Both the position numbers and the translations under genes were made by a program. A model generated the notes under the pieces. The model worked only from the letters and a program-made list of their open reading frames with translations. It ran no database searches and was not told the origin of the DNA. Shown piece by piece: positions 8,978 to 16,956 of a stretch of 64,000 nucleotides of DNA. The first letter of the stretch is position 1. The number at the start of each line of letters is the position of its first letter. Source of the DNA: Streptomyces sp. NRRL S-646 (GTDB taxonomy: Bacteria > Actinomycetota > Actinomycetes > Streptomycetales > Streptomycetaceae); NCBI RefSeq assembly GCF_000720765.1, contig NZ_JODC01000006.1:248001-312000 (forward strand), read 5' to 3'.

Positions 8978-9006
8978 GCACCCTCGCGCACACCGGTCGC
9001 CACTCC

Positions 9007-9045
9007 GCCCGCATAACCTGACGGCACATGTCAGGTTATGCGGGC
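9007..9045 (+). terminator. Perfect 16-bp hairpin after LPKTG gene
   Basis: GCCCGCATAACCTGAC (9007-9022) and GTCAGGTTATGCGGGC (9030-9045) are perfect inverted repeats with a 7-nt loop, 29 bp after the surface-protein stop. A factor-independent terminator without a U-tract is the likely role. It overlaps the apparent start of the pseudogene that follows, showing that the latter has no promoter or leader of its own. Confidence 0.75.
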
Positions 9046-9048
9046 ACG

Positions 9049-9518
9049 ATGCGTTTCGCATACACCGGGGCCGACGGTGATGAACTCGTCGCTCCGCTGC
9101 GGGAGTCGGGGCCCGCGCTCGCCGACTCCCTGCGGGAGATGCCGTATGCCGAGAACCACACGATCCACAGCGACCCGGACTTCCCGCATGCGTACTACGA
9201 GGACAGTGCGGTGCTGAGCGAGTTGGACGCGGTGAGGGCCGGTGACGTGCTCGCCGCCACCGGGCCGGATGCGGGCGGTCCGATGTGCGTTCTGCAGATC
9301 AACCACCTGGGCGGGACGCGGCGCGCGCGGTGCTGGATCCGGCGTTCGCGGTGCTCACCCCGGTCACGATCGGGCGTGCGCTCAACTTCGCCTTCGGTGC
9401 CGGGGACCGGACGGACGGGCTGTACGACGCCGGAATGCTGAAGAGGCTCGCCGGGCTGAAGGCGTCGTACGACCCGGCGAACCTCTTCCGCAGGAACTAC
9501 AGCCTCAGCGCTTGTTGA
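9049..9518 (+). pseudogene. Remnant of FAD-linked oxidase (BBE-type), truncated and frameshifted
   Basis: The first frame reads MRFAYTGADGDELVAPLRES... to QINHLGG (about 9049-9315), matching the middle of FAD-dependent berberine-bridge-like oxidoreductases. Just after QINHLGG the homology jumps to another frame, RAVLDPAFAVLTPVTIGRAL onward, ending with the characteristic YDPANLFRRNY C-terminus (about 9320-9518). The entire N-terminal FAD-binding half is absent. A deletion of the 5' part and a frameshift near 9315-9330 have destroyed the gene. It overlaps the 3' end of bioY by 14 bp. Confidence 0.8.
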
Positions 9519-10083
9519 CGAGCTTCCAGGCGGTGGGCATGACGCCCATCGCCAGGGCGGCCTTGAGGGCGTCGCCGATCAGGAACGGCGTGAGGCCGGC
9601 CGCGATCGCGGCGGACGCGGACATGTCGGCGGCATAGGCCAGGTACGGGACGCCGACGGCGTAGATGATCGCCTCGCCGAGCAGCATCGTGCCCGCCATG
9701 CGCAGCACGGAGCGGTCGGCGCCGCGGCGGGCCAGGGCGCCCACCACGGTGGAGGCGAGGAGCATGCCGAGGATGTAGCCGAAGGAGACGGAGACACCGG
9801 AGCTGCCGCCCGCGAACCACGGCACACCGGCGAGTCCGGCCAGCGCGTACAGCACGAGCGAGGCCAGGCCGCGGCTCGCGCCGAGCGTCGTGCCGACCAG
9901 CAGCGCGGCGAAGGTCTGGCCGGTCACCGGCACCGGGGAGCCCGGGACGGGGACGGAGATCTGAGCCGCGAGGCCGGTGAGCGCGGCGCCGCCGAGCACG
10001 AGTGCCACGTCCCGGACGCGGGACGCGGGGAGCAGGTCGGCGAGGACCTCGCGGGGGCGGGCGGTGACGGCGGCGGTGCTCAT
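9505..10083 (-). CDS. bioY: Biotin transporter S component BioY
   Basis: 192 residues with about six membrane helices. Diagnostic segments are ISVPVPGSPVPVTGQTFA, the GLAGVPWFAGG loop, and SFGYILGML. BioY binds biotin in the membrane and works with an energy-coupling module (BioM/BioN or a shared ECF module); neither gene is adjacent, so it presumably shares a module encoded elsewhere. ATG 10083 begins MSTAAVTARP; an in-frame ATG 29 codons upstream would add a segment with no family match. Confidence 0.92.
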   Translation of the reverse strand: MSTAAVTARPREVLADLLPASRVRDVALVLGGAALTGLAAQISVPVPGSPVPVTGQTFAALLVGTTLGASRGLASLVLYALAGLAGVPWFAGGSSGVSVSFGYILGMLLASTVVGALARRGADRSVLRMAGTMLLGEAIIYAVGVPYLAYAADMSASAAIAAGLTPFLIGDALKAALAMGVMPTAWKLVNKR

Positions 10084-10507
10084 TGGGGACTCCGCGGGTG
10101 ACGGGGACATGCTGGGACACGGTGACGCTATCCCAGCGGCCTGGAGCCGATCACCGTCAGCGGTCGACAAAGGCTGGAACGCGGGCTTGGTGGGCTCCGG
10201 ACAAACAGTGCTGGTTACACGGGGTTTCGCGTGATACCGGTCACTGAGGCAGGGAGGCCGTGCTCACCTGGCAGGAGGCGGGCAGGCCTGTAGGGTCTCA
10301 CCAAATGAATCCTAGTGGTCTGGCCGGATTCACCTTCTCTGGCCTACCCTTCGAGCCATGGTTGCCCAGGCCCGGAACTTCACGTCGCGTCGCTATGTCG
10401 ACCTGCGACGCCAGGGTGCTGCCACCTGTCGCCGTCCGGTGTGAGGCGGGCCGCGGCGCGCCTCGACCTCCGAGACGTGTCGGCCCCGTTCCCGAGGACG
10501 GTCTCCC
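10084..10507. other. Divergent intergenic region bioY / ROK regulator
   Basis: 424 bp without a convincing gene. It contains an imperfect inverted repeat GGTTACACG...CGTGATACC around 10213-10239 near bioY. A possible -10-like TAGGGT lies at 10291-10296, and the perfect repeat TGAATCC/GGATTCA (10306-10332) is annotated separately. The region must hold the bioY promoter and that of the ROK gene. Confidence 0.5.
10306..10332. promoter_or_regulatory. Candidate operator upstream of ROK regulator
   Basis: Perfect 7-bp inverted repeat TGAATCC (10306-10312) and GGATTCA (10326-10332) with a 13-bp spacer. It lies just downstream of a possible -10 TAGGGT (10291-10296), a position suited to autorepression by the ROK protein encoded 175 bp further on. 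This is inference from symmetry and location only. Confidence 0.35.
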
Positions 10508-11695
10508 ATGCCCTCTGCCCTGGCATCCACCCTTGCGTCCCCTTCCACTTCCACCCGCCGCCGGACCAGCGCGAGCGTCGTGCTGCGGTCCGTTCTGGAG
10601 CACGGCCCGGTGGCCCGCAGCACCATCGCCCGGCTGACCGGTCTTTCGCCGGCGTCGGTGACGGACTACTGCGCCCGATTCACCGAACTGGGCCTGATCC
10701 GCGAGTCCGCCGTGCCCCGGCGGTCGAACGGGGTGGGCCGCCCGCACGTCCCCGTCGACCTGGACGACTCCCGGTTCGTGGTCGGCGGGGTGCATGTGGC
10801 GGTGCCGTACACCACGGTCGCGCTGCTCGATCTGCGCGGCCGGGTGGTGGCGCGGCGCGAGCTGAAGCACGAGCGCACCGATCCCGGGTGGGTGCTGGCC
10901 CGGGCCGCCGAGGAGCTCGGGGCGCTGCTGGCCGGCAACCCCCGTTGCCGAGCTCTCGGTGTCGGCGTGGCCGTCGGCGGCTGGGTGGACCGGGAGTCCG
11001 GGACCGTCGTGGAGCACGCGCTGCTCGGCTGGCGGGACGTTGCGGTGCGGGAGGTGCTCGGCGCGCGCACCGGGCTGCCGGTTCATGTGGACGGCCACGC
11101 GCGGGCGCTGGTCAACGCGGAGCGGCTGTTCGGGCGGGCGCGGGGCGGCGGAAGCATGCTGCATCTGTTCGTCGGCAACGTCGTCGACGCGGCCTTCGCC
11201 ACCCACGACGAGGTGCACCACGGGCCCCGCTCCCAGGCCGGCGCCATCGCGCATCTGCCGGTGCCGGGCGGCACGGAGCCCTGCGCCTGCGGGCGGACCG
11301 GCTGCCTGCAGGCCGAGTTGAGCGAGCGGACGCTGTGCCGGCGGGCGCGGGAGGCGGGCGTCACCGACGGTGTGAATCCGATGCACGTGGTCGCGGCGGC
11401 CGCCGCGGACGATCCGGAGGCCGTACGGCTGCTGGTGGAGCGGGCGGGCGCCATCGGGCGGGCGGCGCGGCTGCTGCTGGATGTGCTGAATCCGGAGACG
11501 GTGGTCGTGACGGAGGTCGGGATCATTCACCGGGAGGACTGCCTGAACGCGTTGCGCGAAGGGGTCGGCGACGAGCGGGCGGCTGCCGTCGTACCGACGA
11601 GTTTTCCGGATTCGGTGCTCGCGGTGGCGGGCGGTTCGGTGGCCCTCGACGTGCTCTACCGGGATCCGCTGGCCGCTCGACCTGAGGCTATTTAA
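10508..11695 (+). CDS. ROK-family transcriptional regulator
   Basis: 395 residues. An N-terminal winged helix-turn-helix (about 20-65, RSTIARLTGLSPASVTDYCA) is followed by the ROK/ribokinase-like fold. The zinc motif is intact as CACGRTGC. The ATP-binding DxGxT of sugar kinases is not preserved (GGVHVAVPYTTVAL), so it is a regulator and not a kinase. ROK repressors respond to small ligands, usually sugars or their phosphates. Its position directly upstream of, and co-oriented with, the sulfonate-type operon suggests it controls that operon, although a 250-bp leader with its own small ORF separates them. Confidence 0.88.
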   Translation: MPSALASTLASPSTSTRRRTSASVVLRSVLEHGPVARSTIARLTGLSPASVTDYCARFTELGLIRESAVPRRSNGVGRPHVPVDLDDSRFVVGGVHVAVPYTTVALLDLRGRVVARRELKHERTDPGWVLARAAEELGALLAGNPRCRALGVGVAVGGWVDRESGTVVEHALLGWRDVAVREVLGARTGLPVHVDGHARALVNAERLFGRARGGGSMLHLFVGNVVDAAFATHDEVHHGPRSQAGAIAHLPVPGGTEPCACGRTGCLQAELSERTLCRRAREAGVTDGVNPMHVVAAAAADDPEAVRLLVERAGAIGRAARLLLDVLNPETVVVTEVGIIHREDCLNALREGVGDERAAAVVPTSFPDSVLAVAGGSVALDVLYRDPLAARPEAI

Positions 11696-11712
11696 TTCAG
11701 AATCGCGGAATA

Positions 11713-11718
11713 TTGACA
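11713..11718 (+). promoter_or_regulatory. TTGACA, candidate -35 element of the sulfur operon
   Basis: TTGACA lies 18 bp after the ROK gene stop. With normal spacing, transcription would start near 11746-11750, making the short ORF at 11750 leaderless or nearly so. The -10 is poor (CAGGAA/GGAACA), so the assignment is tentative. Confidence 0.4.
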
Positions 11719-11749
11719 GGGCTCGCCACCGGCCAGGAACATCGTACTC

Positions 11750-11788
11750 ATGAGCCCGATCGTGAGCTGTCGCACCCTTTGTTGCTGA
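11750..11788 (+). CDS. 12-residue Cys-rich leader peptide, candidate cysteine-responsive attenuator
   Basis: ATG 11750 opens MSPIVSCRTLCC and stops at TGA 11786-11788. Three of twelve codons are Cys, and the last two sense codons are TGT TGC. AGGAA lies 11 nt upstream. A small inverted repeat ACACG/CGTGT (11788-11803) begins at the stop codon. It is followed by about 115 nt of C/T-rich RNA with several CTCC blocks that could pair with the GGAG (11936-11939) of the substrate-binding protein. Polycysteine short ORFs act as cysteine-sensing attenuators before sulfur operons in mycobacteria. Here stalling at Cys codons when cysteine is scarce would be expected to raise expression of the transporter. 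Existence of the peptide is unproven. Confidence 0.55.
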   Translation: MSPIVSCRTLCC

Positions 11789-11946
11789 CACGTTGCCGCG
11801 TGTGAAGCGCTCATTTCCTCCTGCGTAAATACCGCGCGAATTCCCTCCCCCTGGCGTTCTCCTGCCGGAATTCCGTCTGCGCTCTTCCCCTCCGCGCTCC
11901 CCTCTTTTCCTGCGCTCCTCCCCTCTGAACCTCACGGAGTCCTGCC

Positions 11947-13014
11947 ATGCATTCCTCTGCCGTGCCGGGTGTCGACCGACGGCTCTTTCTCACCTCAGTG
12001 CTCGGTGCCGCAGCCGGTGTCGCCGGTCTGAGCGGCTGCGCGGGCGGCAGTGCATCCGCCGACAGCAAAGGCGTCTCGACCGCGCCGCTCGCCGACAGGG
12101 TCCCGGCCGGTACGAGCCTGAAGATCGCCTCGTATCAGAACACGGAGCAACTCCAGTTCAGGTTGGCCAAGTTGGGCGGCCTGCCGTTCAAGGTGTCGAG
12201 CTGGTTGAACATCGGCGCCGGTCCGGACGTGATCAACGCTTTCCGCGCCAAATCCCTGGACGTCGCCAACAACGCGGGAATCCCGCCGATCCAGGCGCAC
12301 TACCAGGGCTTCGACGCGAAGATCGTCGCAATCAACATCACCCGCAAGCCGAATTACCTCTTCGCCACCAAGCCCGGCAGCGACATCCGGTCGGTCGCCG
12401 ACTTCAAGGGCAGGAAACTCGCCTTCTCGCAGGGCCAGGCCCAAGGTGTCGTACTCCTGCGGGCGCTGAAGAAGGCGGGACTCAAGTACGACGAGGTCGA
12501 CCTCGTCCCGCTGACCAGCAACCAGTTCCTGACCGCCCTGCAGTCCGGCCAGGTGGACATCGCACCGCTCCCCAACCAGCAGGCGCCCGCCTATCTGGGG
12601 CAGTACGAGTCCAAGGGCGCCCACGCCATCACCACGGACGTCGTCGACCTCCTCAACCTGCTGTGGGCACCGACCTCCGTGCTCAACGACCCCGCGAAGG
12701 CCGCCGCGGTCGCCGCGTACATCCCGTACTGGGCCAAGGGCCAGGTCTGGACGTACGAGAACCCCGACGCCTGGAACGAGGAGTTCTACGTCAAGACGCA
12801 GAACCTGACCCTCGCGCAGGCCCGCGGCATCAGCAAGCTCGCCAACAAGCCGTTGTTCCCGCCGAGTTGGGGCGAAGCGATCAAGTGGGAGCAGGAGACC
12901 GCCGATCTGCTGGCGGAGGGCGGCTTCGTGAAGAAGTTCGACGTCTCCTCGCTCTTCGACCACCGCTTCGAGTCCATCGCCGCCAAGGCCGTGCCGGCGG
13001 AGTACCGGAGGTGA
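11947..13014 (+). CDS. ABC transporter substrate-binding lipoprotein, sulfonate/taurine (SsuA-like)
   Basis: 355 residues. The N-terminus is RRLFLTSVLGAAAGVAG followed by lipobox LSGC, giving a lipid-anchored Cys near residue 29; the twin Arg may allow Tat export. The mature part is the type-2 periplasmic fold of the SsuA/TauA/NrtA group (LKIASYQNTEQLQFRLAKLG, and GAGPDVINAF marking the ligand region). It captures an organosulfonate for import. GGAG lies 7 nt before ATG 11947. It is first in a tight operon: the permease starts 5 bp after it, then the ATPase. Nitrate or another oxyanion cannot be excluded, but the downstream desulfonation enzymes favour sulfonates. Confidence 0.88.
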   Translation: MHSSAVPGVDRRLFLTSVLGAAAGVAGLSGCAGGSASADSKGVSTAPLADRVPAGTSLKIASYQNTEQLQFRLAKLGGLPFKVSSWLNIGAGPDVINAFRAKSLDVANNAGIPPIQAHYQGFDAKIVAINITRKPNYLFATKPGSDIRSVADFKGRKLAFSQGQAQGVVLLRALKKAGLKYDEVDLVPLTSNQFLTALQSGQVDIAPLPNQQAPAYLGQYESKGAHAITTDVVDLLNLLWAPTSVLNDPAKAAAVAAYIPYWAKGQVWTYENPDAWNEEFYVKTQNLTLAQARGISKLANKPLFPPSWGEAIKWEQETADLLAEGGFVKKFDVSSLFDHRFESIAAKAVPAEYRR

Positions 13015-13019
13015 CCGCC

Positions 13020-13865
13020 GTGACCACCACCACGACCGCCGCACCCCCGGTGCAGGCTAGGGAACAGGCCCATCCGGTACGGCGCCGCCGCCGCGGCCTC
13101 TCCCCCGGCAGGCGCCTGCCCGCCTCCAGGCTGATCGGCCCCGCCCTCCTCCTCGCCCTGTGGGCCGCCGCCTCGGCCGCCGGACAGCTCGACCCGGGCG
13201 CGATCCCCGCGCCCTGGACGGTGCTGCGGACCGCCGGCCGCCTGTGGAGCGCCGGGACGCTGCCCACGGACATCCTGACCTCCCTCGAACGGGCCGCGTA
13301 CGGCTTCGCGATCGGCCTCGCGGCCGGGGTCGTCCTGGCGCTGGCCGCCGGCCTCAGCCGGGTCGGCGAGGCGCTGATCGACGGGACCGTGAACCTCAAC
13401 CGGGCGATCCCGACGCTCGGCCTGATCCCGCTGTTCATCCTCTGGCTGGGCATCGGCGAGACGTTCAAGATCGCGATCATCGCGATCGTCGTCTACGTCC
13501 CGATCTATCTGAACACGCACTCCGCGCTGTCCGGCATCGACAGCCGCTATGTCGAACTCGCCGAGGTGCAGGGGCTCTCCCGCTTCCGGTTCATCCGCCA
13601 GATCGTCGTCCCCGGCGCCCTGCCCGGGTTCTTCGTGGGACTCCGGCTCGGGGTGACCGGCTCCTGGCTGGGCCTGGTGGTTCTTGAGCAGATCAACGCC
13701 ACCAGCGGACTCGGCTACATGATGTTCCAGGCCCAGAACTACGGCCAGTCCGACGTCATCCTCGTGGGACTGCTCGTCTACGGGATCTTCGGCCTGGTCT
13801 CCGACAGCGCGGTCCGTCTCATCGAACGGAGGGTGCTGTCATGGCGCCGCACACTGAGCAGCTGA
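13020..13865 (+). CDS. ABC transporter permease, sulfonate type (SsuC-like)
   Basis: 281 residues with six membrane helices and the EAA loop near residues 180-200 (ELAEVQGLSRFRFIRQIVVP), which contacts the ATPase. Family: TauC/SsuC/NrtB. Two GTG starts are possible (13011 and 13020). GGAGG at 13007-13011 fits only the second (8 nt), so 13020 is chosen. The N-terminal 40 residues are basic and proline-rich and longer than usual. The 3' end overlaps the ATPase gene by 25 bp. Confidence 0.9.
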   Translation: MTTTTTAAPPVQAREQAHPVRRRRRGLSPGRRLPASRLIGPALLLALWAAASAAGQLDPGAIPAPWTVLRTAGRLWSAGTLPTDILTSLERAAYGFAIGLAAGVVLALAAGLSRVGEALIDGTVNLNRAIPTLGLIPLFILWLGIGETFKIAIIAIVVYVPIYLNTHSALSGIDSRYVELAEVQGLSRFRFIRQIVVPGALPGFFVGLRLGVTGSWLGLVVLEQINATSGLGYMMFQAQNYGQSDVILVGLLVYGIFGLVSDSAVRLIERRVLSWRRTLSS

Positions 13866-14557
13866 CCCGGCCCGCCGTCCAACTCCGGGGCCTTACACGG
13901 TCGTTCGAGGGGCGTACCGTCCTCGACGGCATTGACCTCGACCTCCCGGCGGGGCAGTTCACGGCGCTGCTCGGGCACAGCGGCTCCGGCAAGAGCACGC
14001 TGCTGCGGGCGATCGCGGGGCTGGACCACAAGGTCGTCGGCAGCGGGCAGCTCACTGCACCGGAGAAGGTGTCCGTGGTCTTCCAGGACTCCCGGCTGCT
14101 GCCCTGGCGGCGGGTCCTGGACAACGTACTCCTCGGCCTGGACGGCAAGGACGCCGAGCAGAAGGGCCGCGCGGCCCTCGCCGAGGTGGGCCTCGCCGGC
14201 CGGGAGCGGGCCTGGCCGAGCGAGCTTTCCGGCGGGGAGGCCCAGCGGGCGGCGCTGGCGCGGTCGCTGGTCCGTGAGCCCGAACTGCTGCTGGCCGATG
14301 AGCCGTTCGGGGCACTGGACGCACTGACGCGCATCAAGATGCACGCGCTGCTGCAAGAGCTGTGGCGGCGGCATCAGCCGTCGGTGCTGCTCGTCACGCA
14401 TGACGTGGACGAGGCGATCGTGCTCGCCGAGCGGGTGCTTGTGCTCGACGCCGGGGGCGTCGCTCTCGATCTGGCCATCGAGCGGGGTGCGGCTGCGCGC
14501 GGCGAGTACCGGGAACGGTTGCTGGCGGCGTTGGGGGTGACCGAAGGCCTGGAGTGA
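13841..14557 (+). CDS. ABC transporter ATP-binding protein, sulfonate type (SsuB-like)
   Basis: 238 residues. Walker A is GHSGSGKS, the Q-loop is in VVFQDSRLLPW (the FQD..LLPW form of SsuB/TauB), the signature is LSGGEAQRAALAR, Walker B LLLADEPFGALDA, and the switch His is in LLVTHDVDEA. It energises the importer formed with the preceding permease and lipoprotein. Start ATG 13841 lies within the permease gene, implying translational coupling. Confidence 0.93.
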   Translation: MAPHTEQLTRPAVQLRGLTRSFEGRTVLDGIDLDLPAGQFTALLGHSGSGKSTLLRAIAGLDHKVVGSGQLTAPEKVSVVFQDSRLLPWRRVLDNVLLGLDGKDAEQKGRAALAEVGLAGRERAWPSELSGGEAQRAALARSLVREPELLLADEPFGALDALTRIKMHALLQELWRRHQPSVLLVTHDVDEAIVLAERVLVLDAGGVALDLAIERGAAARGEYRERLLAALGVTEGLE

Positions 14558-14561
14558 CCGG

Positions 14562-14637
14562 CCTCGGGGGCTGCCGCCCCCGAACCCCCGCTTTCGGCCC
14601 TTAAGGGGCCTCGTCCTCAGACGCCGGACGGGCTGAA
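14562..14637. repeat. Modular intergenic repeat, copy 2
   Basis: The block contains GGGGGCTGCCGCCCCCGAAC, then the core GTCCTCAGACGCCGGACGGG with one base changed from copy 1. It lies in the 137-bp gap between the ATPase and the monooxygenase. If it acts as a transcript end, the two downstream enzymes would need partial read-through or their own promoter. Confidence 0.7.
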
Positions 14638-14694
14638 ATGCCGCGACCGGCAGCCCACAAGTCCGCCTCCGACAAGCCCTCCCAAAGGACAACC

Positions 14695-16035
14695 ATGCCC
14701 CGCCAGCTCCACCTCAACGCCTTCCTCATGAACACCGGCCATCACGAAGCCTCCTGGCGGCTTCCCGAAAGCGATCCGTACGCGCACGTCGAGCTGGGCC
14801 ACTATGTGCGGCTCGCCCGGATCGCCGAACGCGGCACCTTCGACTCGCTCTTTCTCGCCGACGGGCCGCAGTTGTGGGGCAGTCTCGCCCAGCGTCCCGC
14901 GGGCGCCCTGGAGCCGCTGACCCTGCTGACCGCGCTGGCGACGGCCACCGAGCACATCGGGCTGATCGCCACCGCCTCCACCTCGTACAACTCCCCCTAC
15001 AACCTGGCCCGCAAGTTCGCCTCCCTGGACATCATCAGCGGCGGCCGGGCGGGCTGGAACATCGTCACCACGGCGGGTGCCGAGGCCGCGCGCAACTTCG
15101 GTCTGGAGCACGAGCCCGCCCACGCGGACCGGTACGCCCGCGCCGCCGAGTTCCTCGACGTGGCGCTGAAGCTCTGGGACAGCTGGGAGGACGACGCCGT
15201 CGTCGGCGACAAGGCGGCCGGCGTCTGGGGCGACGACACGAAGATCCATCCGCCTCGGCACCAGGGGACGTACTTCAGCGTCGAGGGCGCGCTCAATGTG
15301 CCCCGTTCGCCGCAGGGTTACCCGCTCCTCGTGCAGGCGGGTTCGAGCGAGGACGGGAAGGCGTTCGCGGCGCGGTACGCGGAGGCGGTGTTCACCGCGC
15401 AGCAGACCCTGGCCGACGCCCAGGCCTTCTACGCCGACCTCAAGTCCCGTACGGCGGCGGCCGGCCGGGATCCCGGGCACATCAAGGTGCTGCCCGGGAT
15501 CGTGCCGGTCATCGGGTCGACGGAGGCCGAGGCGCGGGCGAACGAGCAGGTCCTGGAGGACCACATCGTGTACACGCACGGCGTGGACCGGCTGGAGCGG
15601 CTTCTCCAACTCCCGCAGGGGGCACTGGAGCTGGACGCCCGGCTGCCGTCCGACCTGCCGCCGGAGGACGCGATCGAGGGTGCCAAGAGCCGCTACACGC
15701 TCGTCGTCGAACTCGCCCGGCGCGAGCGCCTCACCGTCCGGCAGCTGATCGGCCGGCTCGGCGGCGGACGCGGCCACCTCACCTTCGCCGGCACGCCCGA
15801 GCAGGTCGCCGACGCGATCGAGACGTGGTTCACGCAGGGCGCCGCCGACGGGTTCAACATCATGCCCGCCGTGCTGCCCTCCGGGCTCGAGACCTTCGTC
15901 GACCAGGTCGTCCCGATCCTCCGCGCCCGCGGTCTGCTCCGGAACGAGTACGGCCCCCGCCAGACCCTCCGGGAGCGCTACGGCCTCCCCCGCCCCGCCA
16001 ACCAGTACGCCCCTCAGGAACCCGCCCTCGTCTGA
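14695..16035 (+). CDS. Flavin-dependent monooxygenase, NtaA/SnaA/DszA family (organosulfur or sulfonate desulfurisation)
   Basis: 446 residues, LLM-class bacterial luciferase-like fold. Family marks include LHLNAFLMNTGHHEASWR at the start, ARIAERGTFDSLFLADG, the substrate loop TASTSYNSPYNLARKFASLD, and SGGRAGWNIVTT followed by ARNFG. Members use reduced FMN from a separate reductase to cleave nitrilotriacetate, dibenzothiophene sulfone or other C-S/C-N bonds. Placement behind a sulfonate importer and before a TauD-like dioxygenase suggests release of sulfite from imported organosulfur. No flavin reductase gene is nearby. AAAGGA lies before ATG 14695, so upstream in-frame codons are discounted. 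Confidence 0.88.
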   Translation: MPRQLHLNAFLMNTGHHEASWRLPESDPYAHVELGHYVRLARIAERGTFDSLFLADGPQLWGSLAQRPAGALEPLTLLTALATATEHIGLIATASTSYNSPYNLARKFASLDIISGGRAGWNIVTTAGAEAARNFGLEHEPAHADRYARAAEFLDVALKLWDSWEDDAVVGDKAAGVWGDDTKIHPPRHQGTYFSVEGALNVPRSPQGYPLLVQAGSSEDGKAFAARYAEAVFTAQQTLADAQAFYADLKSRTAAAGRDPGHIKVLPGIVPVIGSTEAEARANEQVLEDHIVYTHGVDRLERLLQLPQGALELDARLPSDLPPEDAIEGAKSRYTLVVELARRERLTVRQLIGRLGGGRGHLTFAGTPEQVADAIETWFTQGAADGFNIMPAVLPSGLETFVDQVVPILRARGLLRNEYGPRQTLRERYGLPRPANQYAPQEPALV

Positions 16036-16050
16036 AAGGACCGACCACCA

Positions 16051-16956
16051 GTGCCAGGCATCGAAATCCAGAAGGTGACCGCCCACATCGGCGCCCGCAT
16101 CTCCGGCGTCGACATCTCCAAGCCGCTCGACGAGGAGACGGCCGCCGCGATCCGCGAGGCCCTCAATGCCCACAAGGCGCTCGTCTTCGACGACGTGAAC
16201 CTCGACGACGCCGGACAGCAGGCTTTCGTCCGCCACTTCGGTGACGTCACCACCGCCCACCCGACGGTCTCCTCCGTGGACGGCGTCCCGAACGTCCTGC
16301 CCGTCGACAGTGAGCGCGGCCGCGCCGCCAACCACTGGCACACGGACGTCACCTTCGTCCTCAACCCGCCGCAGGCCAGCACCCTGCGCAGCATCACGAT
16401 CCCGCCGTACGGCGGAGAGACCCTGATCGCCGACTCGGCGGCCGCCTACCGCCAACTCCCCGAGTCGCTGCGCCAGTTGGCGGACACTCTGTGGGCGGAG
16501 CACACCAACGACTACGACTACGCCGTACCGGAGGAGGAGCTCGACGAGCAGCAGGCCGCCCAGCGCGCCCAGTTCACGTCGATCAAGTACCGCACCGTCC
16601 ACCCCGTGGTGCGCGTGCACCCGCTGACCGGTGAGCGCGGGCTGTTCATCGGCGGGTTCGCACAGCGCGTCGTCGGCCTGTCGCCGGGCGAGTCGCGCAA
16701 GATCCTCGACCTGCTCCAGGCCTATGTCACCCGGCCGGAGAACATCCTGCGCCACCGCTGGTCGGAGAACCAGCTCGTCCTGTTCGACAACCGCATCACG
16801 CAGCACTACGCCGTCGACAACTACGACGGCCTGCCGCGCCGCCTGCACCGCGTGACCGTCGCCGGTGACGTCCCGGTCGGCATCGAGGGCAAGGAGAGCT
16901 ACTCGATCGAGGGCGACGCCTCGCACTACACATCCGTGGCATCCGTAGCCGCATAG
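16051..16956 (+). CDS. TauD/TfdA-family Fe(II)/2-oxoglutarate dioxygenase (taurine or alkyl-sulfate type)
   Basis: 301 residues. The iron triad is H97-x-D99 in HWHTD and H252 in ITQHYAVDNY, with the 2-oxoglutarate Arg at R267 in RRLHRV. The family hydroxylates the carbon next to a sulfonate or sulfate ester, releasing sulfite or sulfate plus an aldehyde. It starts at GTG 16051 with GAAAGGA upstream, 15 bp after the monooxygenase, and is the last gene of the sulfur operon. Two chemically different desulfurising enzymes in one operon suggest a broad sulfur-scavenging range. Confidence 0.88.
   Translation: MPGIEIQKVTAHIGARISGVDISKPLDEETAAAIREALNAHKALVFDDVNLDDAGQQAFVRHFGDVTTAHPTVSSVDGVPNVLPVDSERGRAANHWHTDVTFVLNPPQASTLRSITIPPYGGETLIADSAAAYRQLPESLRQLADTLWAEHTNDYDYAVPEEELDEQQAAQRAQFTSIKYRTVHPVVRVHPLTGERGLFIGGFAQRVVGLSPGESRKILDLLQAYVTRPENILRHRWSENQLVLFDNRITQHYAVDNYDGLPRRLHRVTVAGDVPVGIEGKESYSIEGDASHYTSVASVAA

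Follow-up and report, generated by a model that had tools for sequence, protein, structure and literature searches.

The question raised by this locus was whether a short open reading frame (ORF) that ends in two Cys codons, and lies before a putative sulfonate operon of Streptomyces sp. NRRL S-646, serves as a cysteine-gauging attenuator. The stretch of DNA analyzed, referred to here as the window, comprises 64,000 nucleotides (contig NZ_JODC01000006.1, positions 248,001 to 312,000), and all coordinates are counted from its first nucleotide. The preferred reading, to which a probability of about 0.7 was given, is that the leader would act as a cysteine-gauging attenuator of an organosulfur operon; that it responds to cysteine is what we infer from its sequence.

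Leader ORF and downstream operon

The ORF, the genes behind it and those before it are as follows:
11750 to 11788, plus strand: leader ORF, MSPIVSCRTLCC-stop (ATG at 11750, TGA at 11786-11788)
11780 to 11785, plus strand: terminal Cys codons UGU-UGC of the leader ORF, the presumed sensing pair
11768 to 11770, plus strand: further Cys codon (UGU) of the leader ORF
11947 to 13014, plus strand: SsuA-like (NMT1) substrate-binding protein (SBP), first operon gene (Pfam NMT1)
13020 to 13865, plus strand: ABC permease (Pfam BPD_transp_1)
13841 to 14557, plus strand: ABC ATPase (Pfam ABC_tran)
14638 to 16035, plus strand: NtaA/DmoA-family FMN-dependent monooxygenase (TIGR03860, 547.9 bits, above the cut-off of 279.7)
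16051 to 16956, plus strand: TauD-family dioxygenase (Pfam TauD)
10508 to 11695, plus strand: ROK-family protein, probable regulator (Pfam ROK, 105.7 bits)
10358 to 10444, plus strand: putative leader peptide, MVAQARNFTSRRYVDLRRQGAATCRRPV-stop, the second in the window, before the ROK gene

The leader peptide MSPIVSCRTLCC has 12 residues, with the two Cys codons at its end. The operon had been assigned to sulfur acquisition in the first-pass annotation, and this was borne out by the presence of SsuA-like, NtaA/DmoA-family and TauD-family genes, some of which score below equivalog cut-offs. Since the SBP reached 102.1 bits against TIGR01728 (SsuA; cut-off 163.5) and the TauD-family protein 221.8 bits against the NCBIfam taurine dioxygenase model (equivalog cut-off 313), "sulfonate operon" is a good inference and not an assignment.

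The N-terminus of the ROK protein matched MarR_2 and HTH_IclR, below their cut-offs. The MVAQARNFTSRRYVDLRRQGAATCRRPV leader is preceded by TACCCT, with 7 nt to the ATG, and its sensing Cys codon is UGU; it matched NF042934, the NCBI model of a "putative leader peptide", with an E-value of 0.00012 and 21.6 bits (cut-off 27; E-value 0.014 in the genome search). The ROK regulator and the operon may both be gauged by cysteine.

Conservation of the leader

Conservation was scored in the best 80 of 95 relatives of the SBP gene, taken from one scan of named genomes. A short leader was found in 71 of the 80 and a longer form in 8; in the remaining relative (L061) the ORF and promoter were lost and the remnant TGTTGCTGA is all that stays. 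The core of the short leader in the 71 relatives is S/H/Y/T-C-R-T/A-x-C-C (one, L078, ends in CR), and the eight longer leaders end in R-T-L/R-C-C, except for L079, which ends in CR.

Codons were compared in 72 short leaders (the 71 relatives and the window's own; an artefact ORF of L068 was left out), numbered back from the stop. Cys-3 was TGT in 72/72, Cys-7 was TGT in 71/72, Cys-2 was TGC in 70/72 and the Arg codon was CGC in all 72, while codon −4 could be L, F, S, H, V or I. Two Cys codons ended 71 of the 72 (UGU-UGC in 70, UGU-UGU in L069), with UGU-CGC in L078. The comparison of orthologous leaders proposed in the first-pass annotation thus found the terminal Cys codons kept and the adjacent residues drifting. 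The leader ORF is real and conserved.

The leader was also sought by pattern in 295 Streptomyces genomes, 108 of which were matched by a wider pattern; from its matches, 66 of TGYCGC[AG]CNNNNTGTTGYTGAC were picked by hand. Sixty-four of these lay at most 900 nt upstream of SBP genes (75 genes with at least 75% identity in the 295 genomes), and the exact pattern was absent at 11 of the 75. This placement goes beyond chance. The other two matches precede a TauD-family gene (Pfam TauD). The distance from the leader stop to the SBP match was 85-272 nt (395 in L073, Ns included). A pattern applied to the genome of the window, TGYTGYTGACN{0,12}GCG, was rejected as too loose (111 matches against 51 in the control).

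At the two loci before a TauD-family gene (L170 and L171, genomes G286 and G077) the leader stands directly before that gene and no SBP match was found at E ≤ 1e-60, as if the leader stays with the last operon gene.

RNA between the leader and the first operon gene

The elements considered downstream of the Cys codons were:
11768 to 11790, plus strand: predicted hairpin H0, UGUCGCA (11768-11774) with UGC (11783-11785) and GACA (11787-11790)
11798 to 11810, plus strand: predicted hairpin H2, GCGU (11798-11801) with GCGC (11807-11810)
11789 to 11935, plus strand: C/U-rich, G-poor stretch from the leader stop to the ribosome-binding site (RBS), a possible Rho-loading region
11936 to 11939, plus strand: GGAG, RBS of the SBP gene

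The C/T-rich composition noted in the first-pass annotation was confirmed by counting: 11789-11935 holds C 65, T 40, G 27 and A 15 of 147. Its C-G skew of 0.41 was reached by 27 of 12772 intervals of the same length (0.25%; 10-nt steps, both strands, the stretch's own overlaps included). After the stop, C exceeded G in 71/71 leaders (mean C 0.39, G 0.22; mean skew 0.28), and C-richness was moderate, being in the top 5% of same-locus intervals in 45 of these and outside it in 26. Of the other 13 leaders read in this genome (see below), 5 reached the top 5% of C-skew, and the leader of the ROK gene had a skew of 0.02. No intrinsic terminator was predicted in the window; a loose hairpin followed by UUUU was present in 9/71 leaders, with differing sequences, so that a conserved intrinsic terminator was not found. 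A search of 9000-16000 with Rfam models (E ≤ 5) gave four matches, each of which scored under the gathering threshold and lay outside the leader.

Two ways in which a halted ribosome could act on this RNA were weighed. In translational attenuation of the mycobacterial type, the leader would mask the SBP RBS, and stalling of a ribosome at the Cys codons would expose it. Such a mechanism is described for Mycobacterium smegmatis in passages of PMC13236596 and PMC9031893, and in folds predicted from thermodynamics the GGAG was mostly paired (mean unpaired 0.107, 71 leaders). However, dinucleotide-shuffled leaders paired it about as well (0.105 against 0.113 unpaired, lower in 40/64; 12 shuffles each), and removal of the part that the ribosome would cover changed the unpaired value only from 0.107 to 0.119, with 9/71 rising and 2 falling by more than 0.05. 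The masking of GGAG by CTCC blocks, which had been suggested for this leader, is therefore not upheld, and release of the RBS by a stalled ribosome is possible but rather unlikely. As masking hardly differed from that in shuffled leaders, no intrinsic terminator was found and C exceeds G after the stop, Rho is weakly favored over RBS masking.

Classical transcription attenuation of the 1-2-3-4 kind would have H0 (1:2), H1 (2:3) and H2 (3:4) alternate with the position of the ribosome. The three hairpins do overlap in that order along the window sequence, a ribosome placed at Cys-7 leads the window to fold H1, and H0 and H2 are conserved. H0, which has one bulged U and overlaps the last Cys codon and the stop, was paired in 96.0% of cells of a 64-row alignment (L019, L068, L073, L079, the long forms and six duplicates left out), with neither two-sided changes nor covariation, and its five core pairs were in the minimum free energy (MFE) fold of the ORF plus 50 nt in 66/72 leaders. 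H2 was paired in 93.8% of cells in the same 64 rows, also with no two-sided changes. By contrast, H1 was paired in 63.4% of cells: the hairpin at the stop that the first-pass annotation had reported is weakly kept and was dropped as a conserved element. With the ribosome further on, H2 was missing from the window's own blocked MFE folds and present in some relatives'. It has four pairs and no U-run, and in the window no terminator-like site was found; together with the scarcity of the loose hairpins with UUUU, this makes the 1-2-3-4 scheme improbable, and its classical terminator form was rejected. Visual inspection of some MFE folds had suggested long-range pairing of the leader with the SBP signal-peptide codons; this was also rejected, as L007 at least has no partner.

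H0 bears on codon choice. In the short form, UGU at Cys-7 would follow from it, its U pairing with the A of UGA; UGU at Cys-3 is not explained by H0, because Cys-3 lies in the loop.

Probable promoter and transcript start, and a conserved palindrome

Upstream of the ORF, the following were recognized:
11713 to 11718, plus strand: −35 box TTGACA, each column conserved in at least 71/72 leaders
11737 to 11742, plus strand: putative −10 element GAACAT (xAxxxT), separated from the ATG by 7 nt
11692 to 11711, plus strand: imperfect palindrome TTAATTCAGAA-N3-C-N-GAAT, immediately 5′ of the −35 box

Short leaders have a distance of 37 nt from TTGACA to the ATG (in L041, shifted by 1 nt, it is 36); one set of short leaders was defined with a spacing of 36-37 nt, and another count of the spacing was free of that condition. 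The xAxxxT element ends 8 nt before the ATG, with A at −12 and T at −8 each in 71/72 leaders; GAACAT was exact in 54 of the 72, and the spacer sequence drifts. A scan of the window for the sigma-70 consensus gave no call at this promoter, the −10 element fitting the consensus poorly. Judging by the fixed promoter geometry, transcription would begin on the AUG or next to it, which would make the ORF leaderless, as is probable, and the first in the transcript. In passages of PMC8079986, most described leader peptides of S. lividans are called leaderless. The AGGAA given in the first-pass annotation is present at 11735-11739; as a Shine-Dalgarno sequence it was rejected, since it overlaps the putative −10 element and SD-like motifs (AGGA, GGAG, GAGG or GGAA) were absent from 9/72 leaders.

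Few parts of the region are as conserved as the palindrome, 17 of its 20 columns (−58 to −39) being at least 95% identical in the 72 leaders, and a search of this genome for the palindrome joined to TTGAC gave a single site at up to 3 mismatches. It could be an operator, to which the ROK protein may bind. Control by this palindrome only, at the level of transcription and with an incidental ORF, would leave the codon-level constraint in the ORF unaccounted for; such control is also compatible with attenuation, and as a sole explanation it is very improbable. Slightly less probable still is an ORF that boosts downstream translation by re-initiation or ribosome delivery and senses no cysteine, a general idea already published for leader genes (PMC4833913); it leaves unexplained the conserved Cys codons with drifting neighbors, the UGU bias and the 85-272 nt between stop and SBP match.

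Proposed mechanism

The ORF, its Cys codons, the choice of UGU, the promoter geometry and the link to the operon are conserved. Sensing, the direction of the response and the step that cuts expression are proposed as follows. Transcription would start at or next to the leader AUG, as the promoter spacing suggests; a ribosome would load on the AUG and reach the terminal UGU-UGC. With sufficient Cys-tRNA it would pass to the UGA and leave; the C-rich RNA would then be exposed and expression cut, most likely, though this is weakly held, by Rho that loads ahead of the SBP gene. With Cys-tRNA in short supply the ribosome would halt at UGU and cover the stop-proximal RNA, and the operon would stay on. 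The ORF would be a short relative of the actinobacterial R-x-H-V-D-L-x-R...C leaders, with UGU-UGC-UGA kept and the middle absent. A soil genus may thereby tie organosulfur scavenging to cysteine supply.

Related leader peptides and the UGU codon

The first-pass annotation had suggested that such control would extend the mycobacterial mechanism to another genus and gene set; for Streptomyces this is not new in kind, as such leaders are already curated by NCBI as NF042934. At E ≤ 1e-4 this model matched 21/21 Streptomyces genomes and, in the class, 131/197 genomes and 61/90 genera, against 0/14 control genomes; at the looser limit of the genome search 10/14 control genomes also matched, none over the cut-off. 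The genome studied here has 8 matches over the cut-off and 5 weaker candidates. In the window, NF042934 gave no match to 11750-11788 up to E 10 (150 of 378 candidates scored), nor did NF042933 (Ms5788A; 150 of 150 candidates scored), and neither model matched 11720-11785 read through (22 aa) in hmmscan. Because neither model matches, the window leader, which resembles the NF042934/NF042933 family, is classed as a variant and not as a member.

Thirteen other leaders were read in this genome, with a doubtful fourteenth (L127). Sulfur-type genes, as judged by best match, follow 7 of the 13: cysteine dioxygenase, a ThiS-family protein with cysteine synthase, a NirA/sulfite-reductase-type enzyme, an SsuC-type permease, SfnG, a rhodanese and a TauD-type dioxygenase. 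A DmoA-like monooxygenase, a flavin reductase, another permease, a GST-like protein, a periplasmic-binding protein and the window's ROK gene follow the others. SfnG, cysteine synthase and the Pfam matches of CDO, ThiS and rhodanese were over the cut-off; the other NCBIfam best matches were below.

The sensing Cys codon, taken at the last column of the profile, was TGT in 108/108 distinct leaders sampled from the family (L112-L124, L176-L304): 12 from this genome, 28 from other Streptomyces, 38 from further Streptomyces (of 40 stretches) and 30 that came out of the class search and include a few Streptomyces. In this genome the profile ends on Cys in 12/13 leaders, with TGT in all 12. The count leaves out L196 (misframed near a contig end) and L289, L291 and L120 (column 19 not Cys). 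When the first Cys after codon 12 was taken instead, the ratio was 24 TGT to 5 TGC, whereas at the last column all 28 valid loci had TGT. Ms5788A-type leaders had UGU at the corresponding Cys in 30/30 loci, many of which are the same places. As the samples lean to best-scoring matches and are related, a binomial figure would overstate the result.

Elsewhere in the same peptides, Cys was TGC in 43/48 at column 12 and in 30/38 at column 17, and conserved residues varied synonymously (Asp GAC 88, GAT 20; Leu CTG 62, CTC 42; Arg with five codons). UGU makes up 6-16% of background Cys codons: 5/81 in SBP genes, 2/17 in window genes, 372/2766 in the 80 loci, 13/165 in genus loci and 44/281 in class loci. 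What is new here is the invariance of UGU at the sensing Cys codon. In the amino-acid motif the constraint appears to lie on the peptide, and at the sensing position on the codon itself.

Decoding of UGU by tRNA-Cys(GCA) relies on a G-U wobble, and the obvious hypothesis is that slower decoding of UGU makes a more sensitive gauge. Our tentative general proposal, which we hold at somewhat less than even odds, is that cysteine attenuators of Actinomycetes read a wobble-decoded UGU at a fixed place, the codon and not only the amino acid setting the threshold and R-x-H-V-D-L-x-R acting through the nascent peptide, and that the Streptomyces sulfonate leader is a stripped version with the UGU kept and the motif lost. 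The invariant UGU makes tuning of attenuation by codon choice testable by one silent change. Among the top-listed papers in searches of open-licence PMC literature, none dealt with a UGU rule or with a cysteine leader before a sulfonate operon of Streptomyces.

In RxHVDLxR (profile columns 6-13) the codons drift synonymously and the amino acids are conserved, a hint that the nascent peptide may have a function in addition to that of the Cys codon. In the window subtype, which is without RxHVDLxR, the motif is apparently dispensable.

Short and long forms

The short form would descend from the long one. In profile searches, the long-form leader of L044, VPLTKCRVVDLMRVARTRCC, aligned with the NF042933 Ms5788A model (E-value 0.0082, 15.8 bits, cut-off 45), and the upstream leader of L061 matched NF042934 with an E-value of 0.00037, below the cut-off; the long form of L068 matched none of the NCBIfam models. 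In the SBP tree, in which the outgroup is very distant and the root unsure, the eight long forms fell into one supported clade of 10 rows nested among short forms, together with the remnant L061 and the short-form L069. This nesting would seem to count against a long ancestor, or at least not for one. The tree and the missing NCBIfam match of L068 slightly lowered our confidence in the best explanation, a long ancestor being less supported.

L069 has a short leader inside the long-form clade, and its first Cys codon is TGC, as in long forms, which suggests an independent in-frame deletion.

Comparison with known systems

Mycobacterial polycysteine leaders are reportedly the subject of work by Canestrari in 2020. 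Like these and the Ms5788A leaders of NF042933, the window leader is a short ORF that finishes in Cys codons; it differs in having two terminal Cys codons only, and in that RBS masking is unsupported.

Cys leader peptides of cys/cbs operons were reported in Mycobacterium, P. acnes and B. longum (Seliverstov 2005; PMC1262725). In the passages of that paper on cysteine, the leaders have, as here, Cys codons beside the stop and no terminator hairpin, and pyrimidine-rich stretches, comparable to the C/U-rich stretch of the window, are weakly suggested as Rho sites; Streptomyces is not named in those passages and the operon differs from that of the window. Passages of PMC8632094 describe uORFC-8-2 before cysS in Rhodobacterales, which resembles the window leader in its tandem Cys codons within a short ORF and in the attenuation proposed for it, and is unlike it in having an intrinsic terminator and a predominance of UGC, and in belonging to another phylum and another gene. 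In passages of PMC4633059, Cys-rich leaderless uORFs are conserved and ribosome occupancy is shown at one locus of M. smegmatis; Cys-rich ORFs of M. tuberculosis and their codon G/C use are treated in passages of PMC9094748.

The metL methionine leader of S. lividans published in PMC8079986, MSTTSDRTPATEATTTPGARCMCRRMCAF, which precedes metNIQ, contains three Cys codons and may be a cysteine sensor too.

The leaders of NF042934 share with the window leader a short actinobacterial ORF, a terminal Cys and a frequent place before sulfur-type genes; they differ from it by RxHVDLxR, which the window peptide does without.
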